From Martelella mediterranea (GTDB taxonomy: Bacteria > Pseudomonadota > Alphaproteobacteria > Rhizobiales > Rhizobiaceae): a stretch of 64,000 nt of DNA. Where the stretch lies: contig NZ_SMAR01000003.1 of assembly GCF_004342225.1 (NCBI RefSeq), positions 1 to 64,000 of the forward strand, read 5' to 3'. The notes under the pieces were generated by a model, which saw nothing but the letters and a program-made list of their open reading frames with translations, was not told the origin of the DNA and did no database searches. Positions 24,815-41,693 of this stretch are shown in pieces. Every line of letters begins with the position of its first letter. The first letter of the stretch is position 1. A program made the translations under genes and the position numbers.

Positions 24815-26347
24815 TTATGCCTCTGCCGCGCGTGCCATTGCGCGCTTTTCGCGACGGCGCTGAACGGAGGAGGGGATGCCCATAGCTTCGCGGTACTTGG
24901 CGACTGTGCGGCGTGCAAGCGCGATGCCGTCCTGCCTCAGGGCGGAAACGATATCGTCATCTGAAAGAACGGATTCCGGCGTTTCCGCGGTAATCAACTG
25001 ACGGATACGATGGCGGACAGATTCGGCGGAATGGGTGCCGCCATCTGCGTTCGATGTTGCGATTGACACAGAGAAAAAATATTTCAGCTCAAAAAGACCG
25101 CGTGGCGTGAGCATGAACTTGTTTGAAGTTACGCGGCTCACTGTCGACTCATGCATATCGATTGCTTCGGCGACGGTTTTCAGTGTCAGAGGTCGCAGGT
25201 GGTCAACACCGTGTTTCAGAAAAGCATCCTGCTGACGAACAATCTCTGTCGCGACTTTGAGGATCGTTCGCGCACGCTGATCAAGGCTTCTGGTCAGCCA
25301 ATTCGCATTTTGAAGGCAGGTATTCATAAATGTCCTGTCTGCTTCAGAAACGCCTTTATTGGCTTTCACCTGAGAAAGGTATGAGCGGTTGACAAGGACC
25401 CGCGGAAGCGTATCAGCGTTCAGTTCGACCTGCCAGACTCCTTGTTTTCCGGCGCTGACAATCACATCCGGCAGCACCGCTTCCGGTGGCTGATAGCCGA
25501 ACGTGCTTCCCGGCTTGGGGTTAAGCGTGCGCAGCTCCCGGAGCATGTCGATAAGGTCGTTTTCATCGACGCCACACAGCTTTTTCAGTTTGGCAAAGTC
25601 CCGTCGGGCTGCAAGATCAAGGTGGTCAATCAATGCCGCCATGGCGGGATCCAGACGGTCTTTCTGGTGCAGCTGCTCACGCAGACACTCATTGAGTGTC
25701 CGGGCAAAAATTCCGGGTGGGTCGAGTTTTTTCAGTTGCTCCAGTAGTGTCGCAATGCGTTCAGCCGCAACGCCGATCCGACCTGCGATTTCTTCATTGT
25801 CTCCGCGGAAATAACCTGCTTCATCAAGATGATCGACCAGATAGGTTGCGATGGCGCGGTCGGACGCATCACGAATTAATAACGCGATCTGCTCATTGAG
25901 GTGATCCCTCAGGCAGAGTTGCCCGGCGACAAACTCATCGAGATCGACATGATCCTCACCTCTTGCGCCCCCCGGCATGGATTTCCACTGATCCAGTAAT
26001 TCGGGCGCATCCGGACGCTCATTCGCAGCATTTTCATTGAAAGCGTCGTTGTAGTTGCTGTCGAGCTGTTCGCTGAGCGCAGGCTGTCCGGCATCGTCGC
26101 TGAACCAGTCAGCGCCTGTTTCTGTTGCTGTTTCATCAGTGCTGAACGGCTCCGGTGTGACCTCTTCTTCCAGCGAACGTCCCTCGCTGCTTTCGATTTC
26201 CAGCAGCGGGTTCTTTTCAACTTCGGATGCGATGAACTGCATCAGCTCCATGTATGGCATCTGCAGCAGCTGAATGGATTGCATCAGCTGCGGCGTCATC
26301 ACAAGAGATTGATTCTGTCGCAGAAAAAGGCTGGCACTCAGAGCCAT
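24815..26347 (-). CDS. rpoN: RNA polymerase sigma-54 factor
   Basis: A 510-residue sigma factor for nitrogen and other enhancer-dependent genes. Region I (1-50) is the Gln/Leu-rich activator-contact part (NQSLVMTPQLMQSIQLLQ). An acidic region II (about 55-130) follows, then the core-binding domain and the DNA-binding domain with the RpoN box ARRTVAKYRE at about 478-487. It follows lptB in the conserved lptCAB-rpoN-hpf-ptsN order. An exact sigma-54 promoter lies 88 bases upstream but points away (see 26435). Confidence 0.96.
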   Translation of the reverse strand: MALSASLFLRQNQSLVMTPQLMQSIQLLQMPYMELMQFIASEVEKNPLLEIESSEGRSLEEEVTPEPFSTDETATETGADWFSDDAGQPALSEQLDSNYNDAFNENAANERPDAPELLDQWKSMPGGARGEDHVDLDEFVAGQLCLRDHLNEQIALLIRDASDRAIATYLVDHLDEAGYFRGDNEEIAGRIGVAAERIATLLEQLKKLDPPGIFARTLNECLREQLHQKDRLDPAMAALIDHLDLAARRDFAKLKKLCGVDENDLIDMLRELRTLNPKPGSTFGYQPPEAVLPDVIVSAGKQGVWQVELNADTLPRVLVNRSYLSQVKANKGVSEADRTFMNTCLQNANWLTRSLDQRARTILKVATEIVRQQDAFLKHGVDHLRPLTLKTVAEAIDMHESTVSRVTSNKFMLTPRGLFELKYFFSVSIATSNADGGTHSAESVRHRIRQLITAETPESVLSDDDIVSALRQDGIALARRTVAKYREAMGIPSSVQRRREKRAMARAAEA

Positions 26348-26434
26348 GGCAGACGCAAAACTCCATCACCGCAGCGCGTATCCGGAGACCGGCTGACGAA
26401 ACTTCATATGATTGTCATTTTCGAACTATGAAGA

Positions 26435-26450
26435 TGGCACGGGAATTGCT
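26435..26450 (+). promoter_or_regulatory. Exact -24/-12 sigma-54 promoter, antisense to lptB
   Basis: TGGCAC (26435-26440), five bases, TTGCT (26446-26450): all consensus positions match and GG to GC spacing is exactly 10 bases. The direction is rightward, away from rpoN and into the antisense strand of lptB; transcription would begin near 26461. A tiny Trp-rich frame (26481-26552, 23 codons) lies just downstream but has no ribosome-binding site. The site could also serve to block or autoregulate rpoN by binding. Confidence 0.6.
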
Positions 26451-26524
26451 TTCCGATCAAGCCGGAAATTTGCCTGCAGCATGGAAAGATATGCGCCGGG
26501 TTGGTATTGTTGGTGCGATTGGTC

Positions 26525-27343
26525 TCAGAGGCTGAAATTATCACCGAGGTAAAGGCGGCGAACATCGCTGTTGGCTACAATTTCGTCGGCCTTGCCGTGG
26601 GTCAGAACCTCACCGGAGTGGATAATATAGGCACGATCAATGAGCCCCAGCGTTTCGCGCACGTTATGGTCGGTGATCAGGACGCCGATACCGCGTCGGG
26701 TCAGGTGGCGGATCAGATTCTGAATATCGGTCACGGAGATCGGGTCAACACCTGCAAAGGGTTCATCGAGCAGCATGAAAGCCGGGTCCGTGGCCAGTGC
26801 ACGCGCAATCTCAAGGCGCCGGCGCTCACCACCGGACAGGGCGACTGCTGGAGATTTTCGGAGTTTGGTGATGCCAAACTCTTCCATCAGCCGTTCAAGC
26901 TTTTCCTCGCGCTCAGCCTTTTTCAGTTCGGTCAGTTCAAGAACCGCACGAATATTGTTCTCAACGCTCAGACCGCGGAAGATCGATGCTTCCTGCGGCA
27001 GATACCCGACGCCAAGACGGGCGCGGCGATACATCGGCAATCCGGTCACGTCATTGCCATCAAGAACGATATTGCCCTCGTCAATCGGTACAAGGCCCGT
27101 GATCATGTAAAAGCACGTTGTTTTTCCGGCACCATTTGGGCCGAGGAGACCGACAGCCTCGCCACGACGAACAACCAGCGATACGCCATTGACGACGCGA
27201 CGCTGACGGTAGGACTTCGTCAGTCCCTGAGCGATCAGTGTACCAACATAGCGGTCGGAACCATTTGTCGCAGCGCCGGCGCCTCCGCCGTCGGAGCGGC
27301 GTCTGGGGCTGCGGGAGCGCTGTCCGGTATGCGGGCTTTTCAA
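26525..27343 (-). CDS. lptB: LPS transport ATPase LptB
   Basis: A 272-residue cytoplasmic ATPase of the LptBFGC complex that extracts LPS from the inner membrane. Walker A GPNGAGKTT, signature LSGGERRR and Walker B MLLDEPFAGVD are intact. The TTG at 27343 is proposed because GGAG lies 10 bases before it and it starts 25 bases after lptA ends. The alternative ATG at 27427 would overlap lptA by 59 bases and add a low-complexity leader. An S/R/G-rich stretch before the ABC core is common in this order. Confidence 0.93.
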   Translation of the reverse strand: MKSPHTGQRSRSPRRRSDGGGAGAATNGSDRYVGTLIAQGLTKSYRQRRVVNGVSLVVRRGEAVGLLGPNGAGKTTCFYMITGLVPIDEGNIVLDGNDVTGLPMYRRARLGVGYLPQEASIFRGLSVENNIRAVLELTELKKAEREEKLERLMEEFGITKLRKSPAVALSGGERRRLEIARALATDPAFMLLDEPFAGVDPISVTDIQNLIRHLTRRGIGVLITDHNVRETLGLIDRAYIIHSGEVLTHGKADEIVANSDVRRLYLGDNFSL

Positions 27344-27368
27344 ATTCTCATCTCCGAAGGTGTCAGCG

Positions 27369-27944
27369 TCAGTTGCCCGGGCGGGATTTCGGGTCGAGCT
27401 GGATCTGGACACGACCACCGCAAGCATCCAGATTGGCTTCGCTTGTAACCATATTCACGGTCAGCTTGCAGCCGGTGAAGACATTGGCGCCTTCTTTGAG
27501 GACGACGCGATCACCGGTCAGCACAAAATGCTGCGTTGTCATGTCAAAATAGCCTTTGTCGGCCGTTGCTGACTGAGCCTTCGATTGAAGCTGAACATTG
27601 TTGTACAGGTCAATGCGGTCAATATCACCCTGGCCTGATGTCAGGCCGGTTGAGCCACCTTTATAGCGCACGACCATCCTGCTGGACTTGACTGTATTCT
27701 CGCCCTGGACTGCGACCACATCTCCAGTGAATGTGATGAGCTTCTGAGAGTCATCCACTTCCATCTTTTCGGCATTAATATTGATTGGCTGGTTGTCGGC
27801 AATCTGGAAACCACTCATTGTGGTTGTCTGTGCAAGACTTACTCCTGAACTCGCCAGCGCGGCAATGCAAAACGCCGCAGCGGCAGCGCGCGCGACATGG
27901 GAGGCGTGTTGAGAGCGTGTGTTCAAAAACATAGGGGTCCTCAT
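27369..27944 (-). CDS. lptA: Periplasmic LPS transport protein LptA
   Basis: A 191-residue OstA-type protein forming the periplasmic LPS bridge. The signal peptide (about 1-38) ends in SLAQ. The mature part carries beta-jellyroll repeats with INAEKMEVDDSQKLITFTGDV and the second repeat LYNNVQL. It overlaps lptC by ATGA and precedes lptB. Confidence 0.92.
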   Translation of the reverse strand: MRTPMFLNTRSQHASHVARAAAAAFCIAALASSGVSLAQTTTMSGFQIADNQPININAEKMEVDDSQKLITFTGDVVAVQGENTVKSSRMVVRYKGGSTGLTSGQGDIDRIDLYNNVQLQSKAQSATADKGYFDMTTQHFVLTGDRVVLKEGANVFTGCKLTVNMVTSEANLDACGGRVQIQLDPKSRPGN

Positions 27945-28621
27945 TGTCCGCTCGGGCTCAGCGTTGACGGCGAAAGCGTCACGTGAACGCCGCCGCCAAA
28001 AATAATCTTTTGTCCGTTATCGGTGATATTCACTTCGTCGGCAACCACTGATGCCTGATCGGATTCGGCTGTAAACGGCCCTTTGCTCTCCAGTGTGCCA
28101 TTTTTTACATCAATAAATGCAGAATTGAAGTGAGCAGTCAGGCCATTCGACATTTCCAGAGTGAAAGGCTCGTCGATTTTCAACTGATCGTTGGTGCGGT
28201 TGTAGAACGCGCTGGCAGCCCTTACCAGGGCGACGACATCATTTTCCATCGGCACTTTTGCGATAACATCTTCAAGCGTGATCTCGCTGCTGCTCGGATC
28301 ATCAGCAGGCAAAAGTGCACGCGCAGCCTTCAGCGAGTAAGGTGTACCATCACTGTTGCGGCCAGACATGCCGGGGTTTGTCATCACAAGCTTGCCATTC
28401 TCAATCGTCGCGGCATCCAGAGAGATGTTGTCGGGAACGGCAGATCGGATGATCGTGGTTGCGATCAGGGCCAGCGTAATCAGCAGTGCCGCAATCGGCA
28501 AAAGGATTTTAAGGCGTTTGACGTTACGGGAATGCTTCGCGGCCTTTTTGAAGCGCTGAGTCTGTTCATGGAGTATCCGCTCCCTGAACTGTTCATCAGT
28601 GGTCGTGGGTGAAGCGTTCAT
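27941..28621 (-). CDS. lptC: LPS export system protein LptC
   Basis: A 226-residue bitopic inner-membrane protein linking LptBFG to LptA. One hydrophobic segment lies at about 43-65 (LKILLPIAALLITLALIAT) and the rest is periplasmic, with MTNPGMSGRNSDGTPY and a beta-jellyroll ending in GGGVHVTLSP. It is first in the lptC-lptA-lptB-rpoN run; its promoter must lie in the 28622-28814 gap, which it shares with divergent sppA. Confidence 0.9.
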   Translation of the reverse strand: MNASPTTTDEQFRERILHEQTQRFKKAAKHSRNVKRLKILLPIAALLITLALIATTIIRSAVPDNISLDAATIENGKLVMTNPGMSGRNSDGTPYSLKAARALLPADDPSSSEITLEDVIAKVPMENDVVALVRAASAFYNRTNDQLKIDEPFTLEMSNGLTAHFNSAFIDVKNGTLESKGPFTAESDQASVVADEVNITDNGQKIIFGGGVHVTLSPSTLSPSGQ

Positions 28622-28814
28622 CGTGCGTCGTGATTCCGGGACGTGAGGTTGTTCAACAAATGCTGATATTCAGATTATTGAAGTAGTATGTTTCCCCTGT
28701 CACAACAAGGATGTAATGGTAAAATCACCGTAAACGAATTGACAGGCGGAGATATGACTGGCCAATCTTCGTGGATTCGATTTTTGAGGTGAACCCTCAA
28801 CACCTGGAGCATTT

Positions 28815-40122: not shown

Positions 40123-41693
40123 GCCTGGCTGGCAAGTTCGCCACGGTTGGCGGAGCTACATTTGCAAGCCGTGTTCTGGGATTTGCACGAGAAACGATGA
40201 TGGCAGCAGCTCTCGGCACGGGGCCGATGGCTGACGTTTTCTACGCAGCATTCCGCTTTCCTAATCTTTTTCGCAGGTTGTTCGCAGAAGGCGCCTTCAA
40301 TGCGGCCTTCGTTCCGCTTTTCTCAAAAGAAATAGAGCAAAGCGGAGTGGAGGGGGCCAAGCGCTTTTCTGAGGAAGTGTTTGGCGTTCTGTTTTCTGTT
40401 CTTTTCATCATGACCGTGGCAATGGAGCTGGCTATGCCACTTCTTGTCCGCTTCATCATCGCGCCGGGTTTTGCAGATGATGCAGAGAAGTTTGACATGA
40501 CCGTGCGCCTTGCCTCGGTCATGTTTCCTTATCTGATCTGCATGTCTTTAATGGCAATGATGAGCGGCATGCTGAATTCGCTTCATCGCTATTTTGCAGC
40601 GGCAATAGCCCCGGTATTCCTGAATGTCGTGCTGATCGCTGTTCTGGGAGCAGGCGTTTATCTGCAGGCCGATCCGGTTCTTATGGCGAATTATCTGGCA
40701 TGGGGCGTGCTTACGGCTGGGCTGGTTCAGCTGGCCGTCGTCTATTTCGATGTCCGGCGCGCAGGCATGCGGTTCCGCTGGCGCATGCCGAAGATCACGC
40801 CAAAAATCCGGCGCCTTGTCGCGCTTGCCGTTCCTGCTGCCGTGACGGGTGGTGTCATCCAGATCAATCAGATTATTGGGCAGGCCGTGGCCTCTGGCAA
40901 GGAAGGGGCGATTTCGGCGCTTCAATATGCTGACAGGCTTTATCAGCTGCCCCTGGGCGTGGTCGGCGTTGCAGGCGGCGTCGTTTTGTTGCCTGAGCTG
41001 TCGCGGGCTCTCAAAGCCGGGGATACAGGAGAAGCCTCAAGAGTGCAGAACCGCACCATCGAGTTTGTGCTGTTTCTGACGGTTCCCGCTGCCTTCGGGC
41101 TTATGGCAATCTCTCCGGAAATCACCCGTGTTCTCTATGAGCGCGGTGCTTTTGGCCCTCAGACAACAGCGCTCGTTGCTGCGATCATGACTGTCTATGC
41201 GTTCGGGCTTCCGGCCTTCGCGCTCACAAAGGCGCTTCAGCCTGCATTTTATGCGCGCGAAAACACGAAGTTGCCGATGCGCTTCACGCTGATTGCCGTT
41301 GTCATCAATTCGGCCCTGGCGATTTCTCTGTTTCCCATTCTGGCCGAACGCGGCATTGCCCTTGCCGAGGTTGTCTCGGGGTGGACCAACGTCATTTTGC
41401 TGGCAACGACCCTCATCCTAAGCGGTCATTTGCGTTTCGATAAGCTGTTGATGCGGCGTGGTCCGTTAATCATTGTCAGCGCCGCGGTCATGGCGCTTGC
41501 CGTTCGGTATGCGGCAGGCAGCATGTCCGGGTGGTTCACGCCAGCTTCTCCCTTTCTGCACCAGCTTGGCGGACTTGTCCTTCTTCTTCTGCTTGCTGCG
41601 TTGGTTTATTTCGGCCTCGTTATTGCGACCGGGGGTGTCAATAAAGCCCTTCTGGCACGGATGTTGAAACGCAGTGGTTCCGGAAAATCCTGA
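40119..41693 (+). CDS. murJ: Lipid II flippase MurJ
   Basis: A 524-residue MOP-superfamily membrane protein with about fourteen hydrophobic segments, which flips lipid II across the inner membrane for peptidoglycan synthesis. The N-terminal [37 protein letters not shown] and middle [12 protein letters not shown] are family signatures with charged residues in the central cavity. It starts inside the glnD stop (ATGA). Confidence 0.95.

Follow-up and report, generated by a model that had tools for sequence, protein, structure and literature searches.

The comparison of the DNA upstream of rpoN, the gene of sigma-54, across the genomes of a genus, a family and an order (these terms denote groupings of the genome set used) has revealed a conserved sigma-54 recognition element that is antisense to rpoN and lies across the -35 and -10 hexamers from which rpoN is presumably transcribed. 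In the window, i.e. the whole 64,000-nucleotide stretch of DNA that was analysed, this element is the -24/-12 box TGGCACGGGAATTGCT (positions 26435-26450, plus strand), an exact consensus match that is kept in relatives; on the strength of the sequence comparison, we think it likely that the box is an operator-like site for the negative autoregulation of rpoN by promoter occlusion. Abundant sigma-54 RNA polymerase, or sigma-54 alone, would settle on the -24/-12 element in a closed complex that does not transcribe; since the element is located on the opposite strand across the presumed sigma-70 -35/-10 of rpoN, the sigma-70 polymerase would be excluded, and the transcription of rpoN would drop.

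The box reads TGGCAC-N5-TTGCT, with GG-N10-GC spacing, and satisfies the pattern TGGCAC-N5-TTGCW. It is situated between rpoN (24815-26347, minus strand; Pfam domains Sigma54_AID, Sigma54_CBD and Sigma54_DBD) and the gene of an lptB-like ABC ATPase (26525-27427, minus strand; Pfam ABC_tran), whose start has been placed at the first ATG and whose frame is possibly too long; it points away from rpoN, toward the 3' end of lptB. The match to the consensus and its spacing, as well as the position and the orientation of the box between these two minus-strand genes, had been given in a preliminary description of this DNA and are confirmed here. The name lptB is taken from context, because the gene that follows (27369-27944) has an LptA-type domain (Pfam LptD_N); the genes on the other side of rpoN encode an S30AE (Hpf-like) and an EIIA (PtsN-like) domain.

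The box is the sole exact match in the window, where 0.10 matches are expected and at least one match occurs in 10 of 100 shuffles; within the window alone, the case against a chance match is thus moderate. A scan that allows one mismatch adds just the site at 41653-41668, for a total of two sites against 2.96 by chance, i.e. below chance, while the whole genome has seven exact matches against two for the pattern read backwards. Two of the other exact matches in the genome (L002 and L007) are followed by long stop-to-stop frames, which begin 91 and 38 bases, respectively, after the first base of the site; by eye, these frames resemble those of a substrate-binding protein and of a permease, which would be plausible as ordinary sigma-54 targets. 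The Trp-rich frame of 23 codons that the preliminary description had noted downstream of the box does exist (26481-26552, plus strand), and we have rejected it as a gene: the listed frames of the other 12 genus members, at most four for each, include none that is comparable, and in two members a 14-codon frame shares just its last residues with it.

The loci of the family have been collected from a search in which 132 of 151 genomes matched at the cut-off and 19 did not; once G000 and G001, which are counted with the genus, are set aside, 130 are left, and 123 of them have been examined; locus L199 (G055) ended at the end of its contig, and in G014, G049, G051, G065, G081 and G089 the match fell short of the N-terminus of RpoN. 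The addition of G264 and G295 from the search at the level of the order brings the other family loci to 125 and, with the 13 of the genus, the family to 138.

It is the retention of the antisense site in the genus and the family, beyond what is seen in reversed-sequence controls, that argues against a chance match. In the genus, an antisense sigma-54 site with intact GG and GC is present in 13 of 13 genomes, the window included, as an exact match in seven and with one mismatch in six, and its far edge lies 74-155 bases ahead of the start of rpoN. An antisense site with at most two mismatches and intact GG and GC is present in 110 of the other 125 family loci; one locus has a sense site instead, and the remaining 14 are without a site. 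When the same sequences are reversed, five of the 125 loci yield a site in either orientation. Taken together, 123 of the 138 family loci have an antisense site at this threshold, whereas 20 first-order Markov simulations gave 3.8 such loci on average and 9 at most. In two of the 14 siteless loci, the weight matrix picks up a weaker antisense site, with which the totals become 125 antisense, one sense and 12 without a site; the RpoN proteins of these 12 (L229-L232, L234-L237, L239 and L241-L243) are 46-51% identical to that of the window. Conservation of the box in close relatives had been proposed as a check in the preliminary description, and the comparison has passed it, the box being kept while its flanks have drifted.

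This drift is seen when the flanks are anchored on the box without gaps: their median pairwise identity is 0.30; the 11 consensus positions reach 0.91, a value that is partly due to selection. The information content over the 123 sites is concentrated between about -4 and +19 and amounts to at most 0.54 bits elsewhere, with the peak at position -15, near another register of the -35-like hexamer. Two positions that played no part in the selection are also biased: on the sigma-54 strand, the base that precedes TGG is C or T in 94% of the sites and the next base out is A in 74%, a preference which we take to agree with the extended sigma-54 consensus. In most of the family sites, TGGCCC stands in place of the TGGCAC of the window. 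At locus L095, an imperfect inverted sequence, CTAGAGCGGTTC...GAACTGCTCTAG, is located directly upstream of the box, which is still kept.

The conserved site has a fixed geometry with respect to a -35-like hexamer on the strand of rpoN. In the window, the presumed -35 of rpoN is CTTGAT (26456-26461, minus strand), at a register of about -10 from the box; the presumed -10 is CATCTT (26431-26436, minus strand), the best-scoring hexamer at a spacing of 16-19 bases, with an 18-base spacer. This -10 is weak and tentative, since a strict scan for sigma-70 promoters in 26300-26700 found none, with 0.4 expected in shuffles. Along rpoN, the motif TTGA[CT] is found at three registers relative to the box, at about -20 in 41 loci, about -10 in 12 and about -6 in 61, i.e. 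in 114 of 123 loci; it is these fixed registers beside the box that place the box across the presumed -35/-10. The longer CTTGA[CT] adjoins the box in 103 of the 123 loci, occurs there on the opposite strand in none, and is present in 13 of 861 control windows.

Within the genus, the register is about -10 in 11 of 13 genomes and about -20 in two (L099 and L100), and the box is in place in all of them; the presumed -35 thus differs by approximately one helical turn between members, with the sigma-54 site present throughout. In the loci of register -20, the presumed -10 is AATTTT in 34 of 41 and lies within the sigma-54 spacer, which has at least four T in 37 of these 41 loci, against one of the 61 in register -6. 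Given a normal spacing, the -10 falls inside the box or just beyond it, and the -10 hexamers of the family are weak matches. We presume from this arrangement that the -35-like hexamer belongs to the sigma-70 promoter of rpoN.

The rpoN gene of R. etli is said to be negatively autoregulated, an observation attributed to Michiels in 1998. The rpoN gene of R. leguminosarum has been reported to be negatively autoregulated (PMC3538637), and it is because of this report, together with the fact that the box tracks the presumed promoter of rpoN, that we favour autoregulation; the last suggestion of the preliminary description, that sigma-54 may regulate its own gene by bound holoenzyme, is therefore well supported by the comparison. 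An activator is required for the sigma-54 holoenzyme to start transcription (PMC3616915). In E. coli, sigma-70 promoters are repressed where they overlap sites of the sigma-54 polymerase, with competition for binding in vitro, and all of the motifs that are tied to local repression have C at -12 (PMC4551910); repression where a sigma-54 site overlaps another promoter is also stated, with reference to earlier work, in a report whose passages on intragenic sigma-54 sites give no roadblock effect (PMC4591121). The autoregulation of rpoN has also been inferred from predicted sites in several classes (PMC12316311). Counting against our reading, 12 of the 138 family loci lack a recognisable site on either strand and one has a sense site, and sense sites are frequent elsewhere in the order, where activation may be imagined as easily as repression.

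Several known systems share features with the proposed one. The autoregulation of rpoN in R. leguminosarum VF39SM concerns the same gene, with the expected sign, in rhizobia; it is reported for that strain itself, whereas the present case is known from sequence (PMC3538637). In classes I and II of sigma-54 repression in E. coli, the site overlaps a -35/-10, as it would at the presumed promoter of rpoN, and C is likewise kept at -12, but here the target would be the gene of sigma-54 itself, and the site, conserved across most of the family, occupies the opposite strand (PMC4551910). The prediction that places rpoN among the genes transcribed by sigma-54 in several classes, alpha-Proteobacteria included, likewise arrives at autoregulation from sequence, but its passages on rpoN concern transcription from sigma-54 promoters and mention neither antisense sites nor occlusion (PMC12316311). 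At glmY and glmZ, the overlap of sigma-54 and sigma-70 promoters makes two holoenzymes rivals for the same DNA, although both promoters there drive the same gene (PMC3844500). In Yersinia pseudotuberculosis, antisense sites are bound by RpoN, and mutated intergenic sites have had positive and negative effects, but the passages in question deal with other genes and describe no site at rpoN (PMC7657599). The literature searched holds no description of an antisense sigma-54 site at rpoN; the older and most relevant rpoN papers lie outside this search. To the negative autoregulation of rpoN that has already been reported, the present comparison most likely adds a defined stretch of conserved DNA through which it acts, along with a straightforward mechanism. 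Nitrogen use is under the control of sigma-54, as is nitrogen fixation in rhizobia; the box would be a long-conserved natural example of the sigma-54 polymerase as a repressor, a role that has been proposed to be pervasive (PMC4551910).

In sequence, the box is a complete -24/-12 promoter, and it could combine occlusion with a second function, as a sensor besides a brake: rpoN would be silenced by the parked polymerase until an enhancer-binding protein fired the box, which would lift the block and yield a short antisense RNA. The demand for sigma-54 transcription would in this way itself relieve the repression of sigma-54. Activators can work from solution, and a local enhancer is then not required. 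We regard this extended form as unlikely, for the presumed antisense start region has no conservation over the 123 sites, and the search for enhancers over short upstream stretches (64-240 bases, median 123) is nearly negative: palindromes of the NtrC type occur in none of the 123 loci (none in a relaxed form either, with one in the control), and motifs of the NifA type occur in four of the 123, against none in the reversed control. Because of these four loci, activation of the box is conceivable, and the box may give rise to a weak or conditional antisense RNA.

The lead reading of the preliminary description takes the box for a working sigma-54 promoter and has its antisense RNA run through lptB, and perhaps lptA; LPS transport would then be tuned by base pairing or collision. 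This reading is more improbable still. The exact consensus does face lptB, the NifA-type motifs would allow for activation, and lptB is located upstream of rpoN in 13 of 13 genomes of the genus and in 115 of the 125 other family loci, within the 700 or 1500 bases examined. Yet 10 family loci have no lptB in the 700 bases upstream, and eight of them keep the box; when 6 kb upstream of these eight were examined, seven had no lptB, a match of 32% identity in L291 having been discounted as a paralogue, and one had lptB approximately 1.3 kb away. Conversely, 13 loci have lptB and no antisense box with at most two mismatches; among these are two with a weaker antisense site and one with a sense site. 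The box follows rpoN independently of lptB, and it is mainly on account of the boxed loci without lptB that we have set antisense control of lptB aside and consider that the box serves rpoN.

Other observations on this region also stand against an RNA directed at lptB, beginning with the start region and the missing NtrC-type palindromes described above. The identity at third codon positions, with few sites in each bin, has no clear rise toward the 3' end of lptB, where the last three bins are at 0.66, 0.66 and 0.56 against 0.50-0.66 earlier; the values for codons 1-60 of rpoN, 0.52 and 0.48, are at the low end of the range of that gene and give no sign of a hidden constraint. Nothing terminator-like has been found in 26300-26700, and 26200-28700 has no match in Rfam.

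Least probable of all is that the conserved island is just the sigma-70 promoter of rpoN, or the site of another protein, and resembles a sigma-54 site by coincidence; the island is intertwined with the -35-like hexamer, and the binding of sigma-54 is a prediction, but GG-N10-GC is kept across three registers of the -35, two of them inside the genus, the positions outside the selected ones fit sigma-54, and the element reappears in flipped orientation in Devosia.

Promoter occlusion by a sigma-54 site on the opposite strand is proposed for the rpoN gene of the window and its counterparts; second copies of the gene have a different arrangement. In the stretches before rpoN2 (L295-L300), where the N-terminus was recognised by motif in two of six and the start estimated from the match in the rest, a sense sigma-54 site is present in six of six, with matrix scores of 10.6-16.7 in a comparison that had no reversed control; the best antisense score is 3.7. 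The antisense box is present before rpoN1 in the same six genomes. The sense site before rpoN2 fits the report of an rpoN2 that lies within an operon activated by NifA (PMC3538637).

Outside the family, the orientation of the site is mixed. From the 183 genomes that matched at the level of the order, 56 loci of other families have been examined, i.e. those that already had loci and approximately one for each family. By the best site of each locus, 34 of the 56 are above the highest reversed control, 25 of them antisense and nine sense; in the totals of the scan, 25 antisense sites and 10 sense ones exceed this control. The upstream DNA of L058, one of the 80 named loci, was too short for a matrix scan; in the 79 that were scanned, the best site is above the highest control in 15, seven antisense, which include L008, L009 and L043 (Pseudaminobacter, Phyllobacteriaceae and Rhizobiaceae, respectively), and eight sense. 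Among the named loci scanned, no locus of Sphingomonas is above the highest control by matrix.

In Devosia, a sense site with at most two mismatches is present in eight of eight loci (L013, L018, L019, L025, L027, L028, L038 and L045), of which four outscore the highest control in the matrix scan. The Devosia box, as judged by eye, is located at or near a possible sigma-70 -35; occlusion would fit either orientation, and activation is equally possible there. Several of these loci share a stretch that resembles GAGTCATGGT downstream of the sense site.
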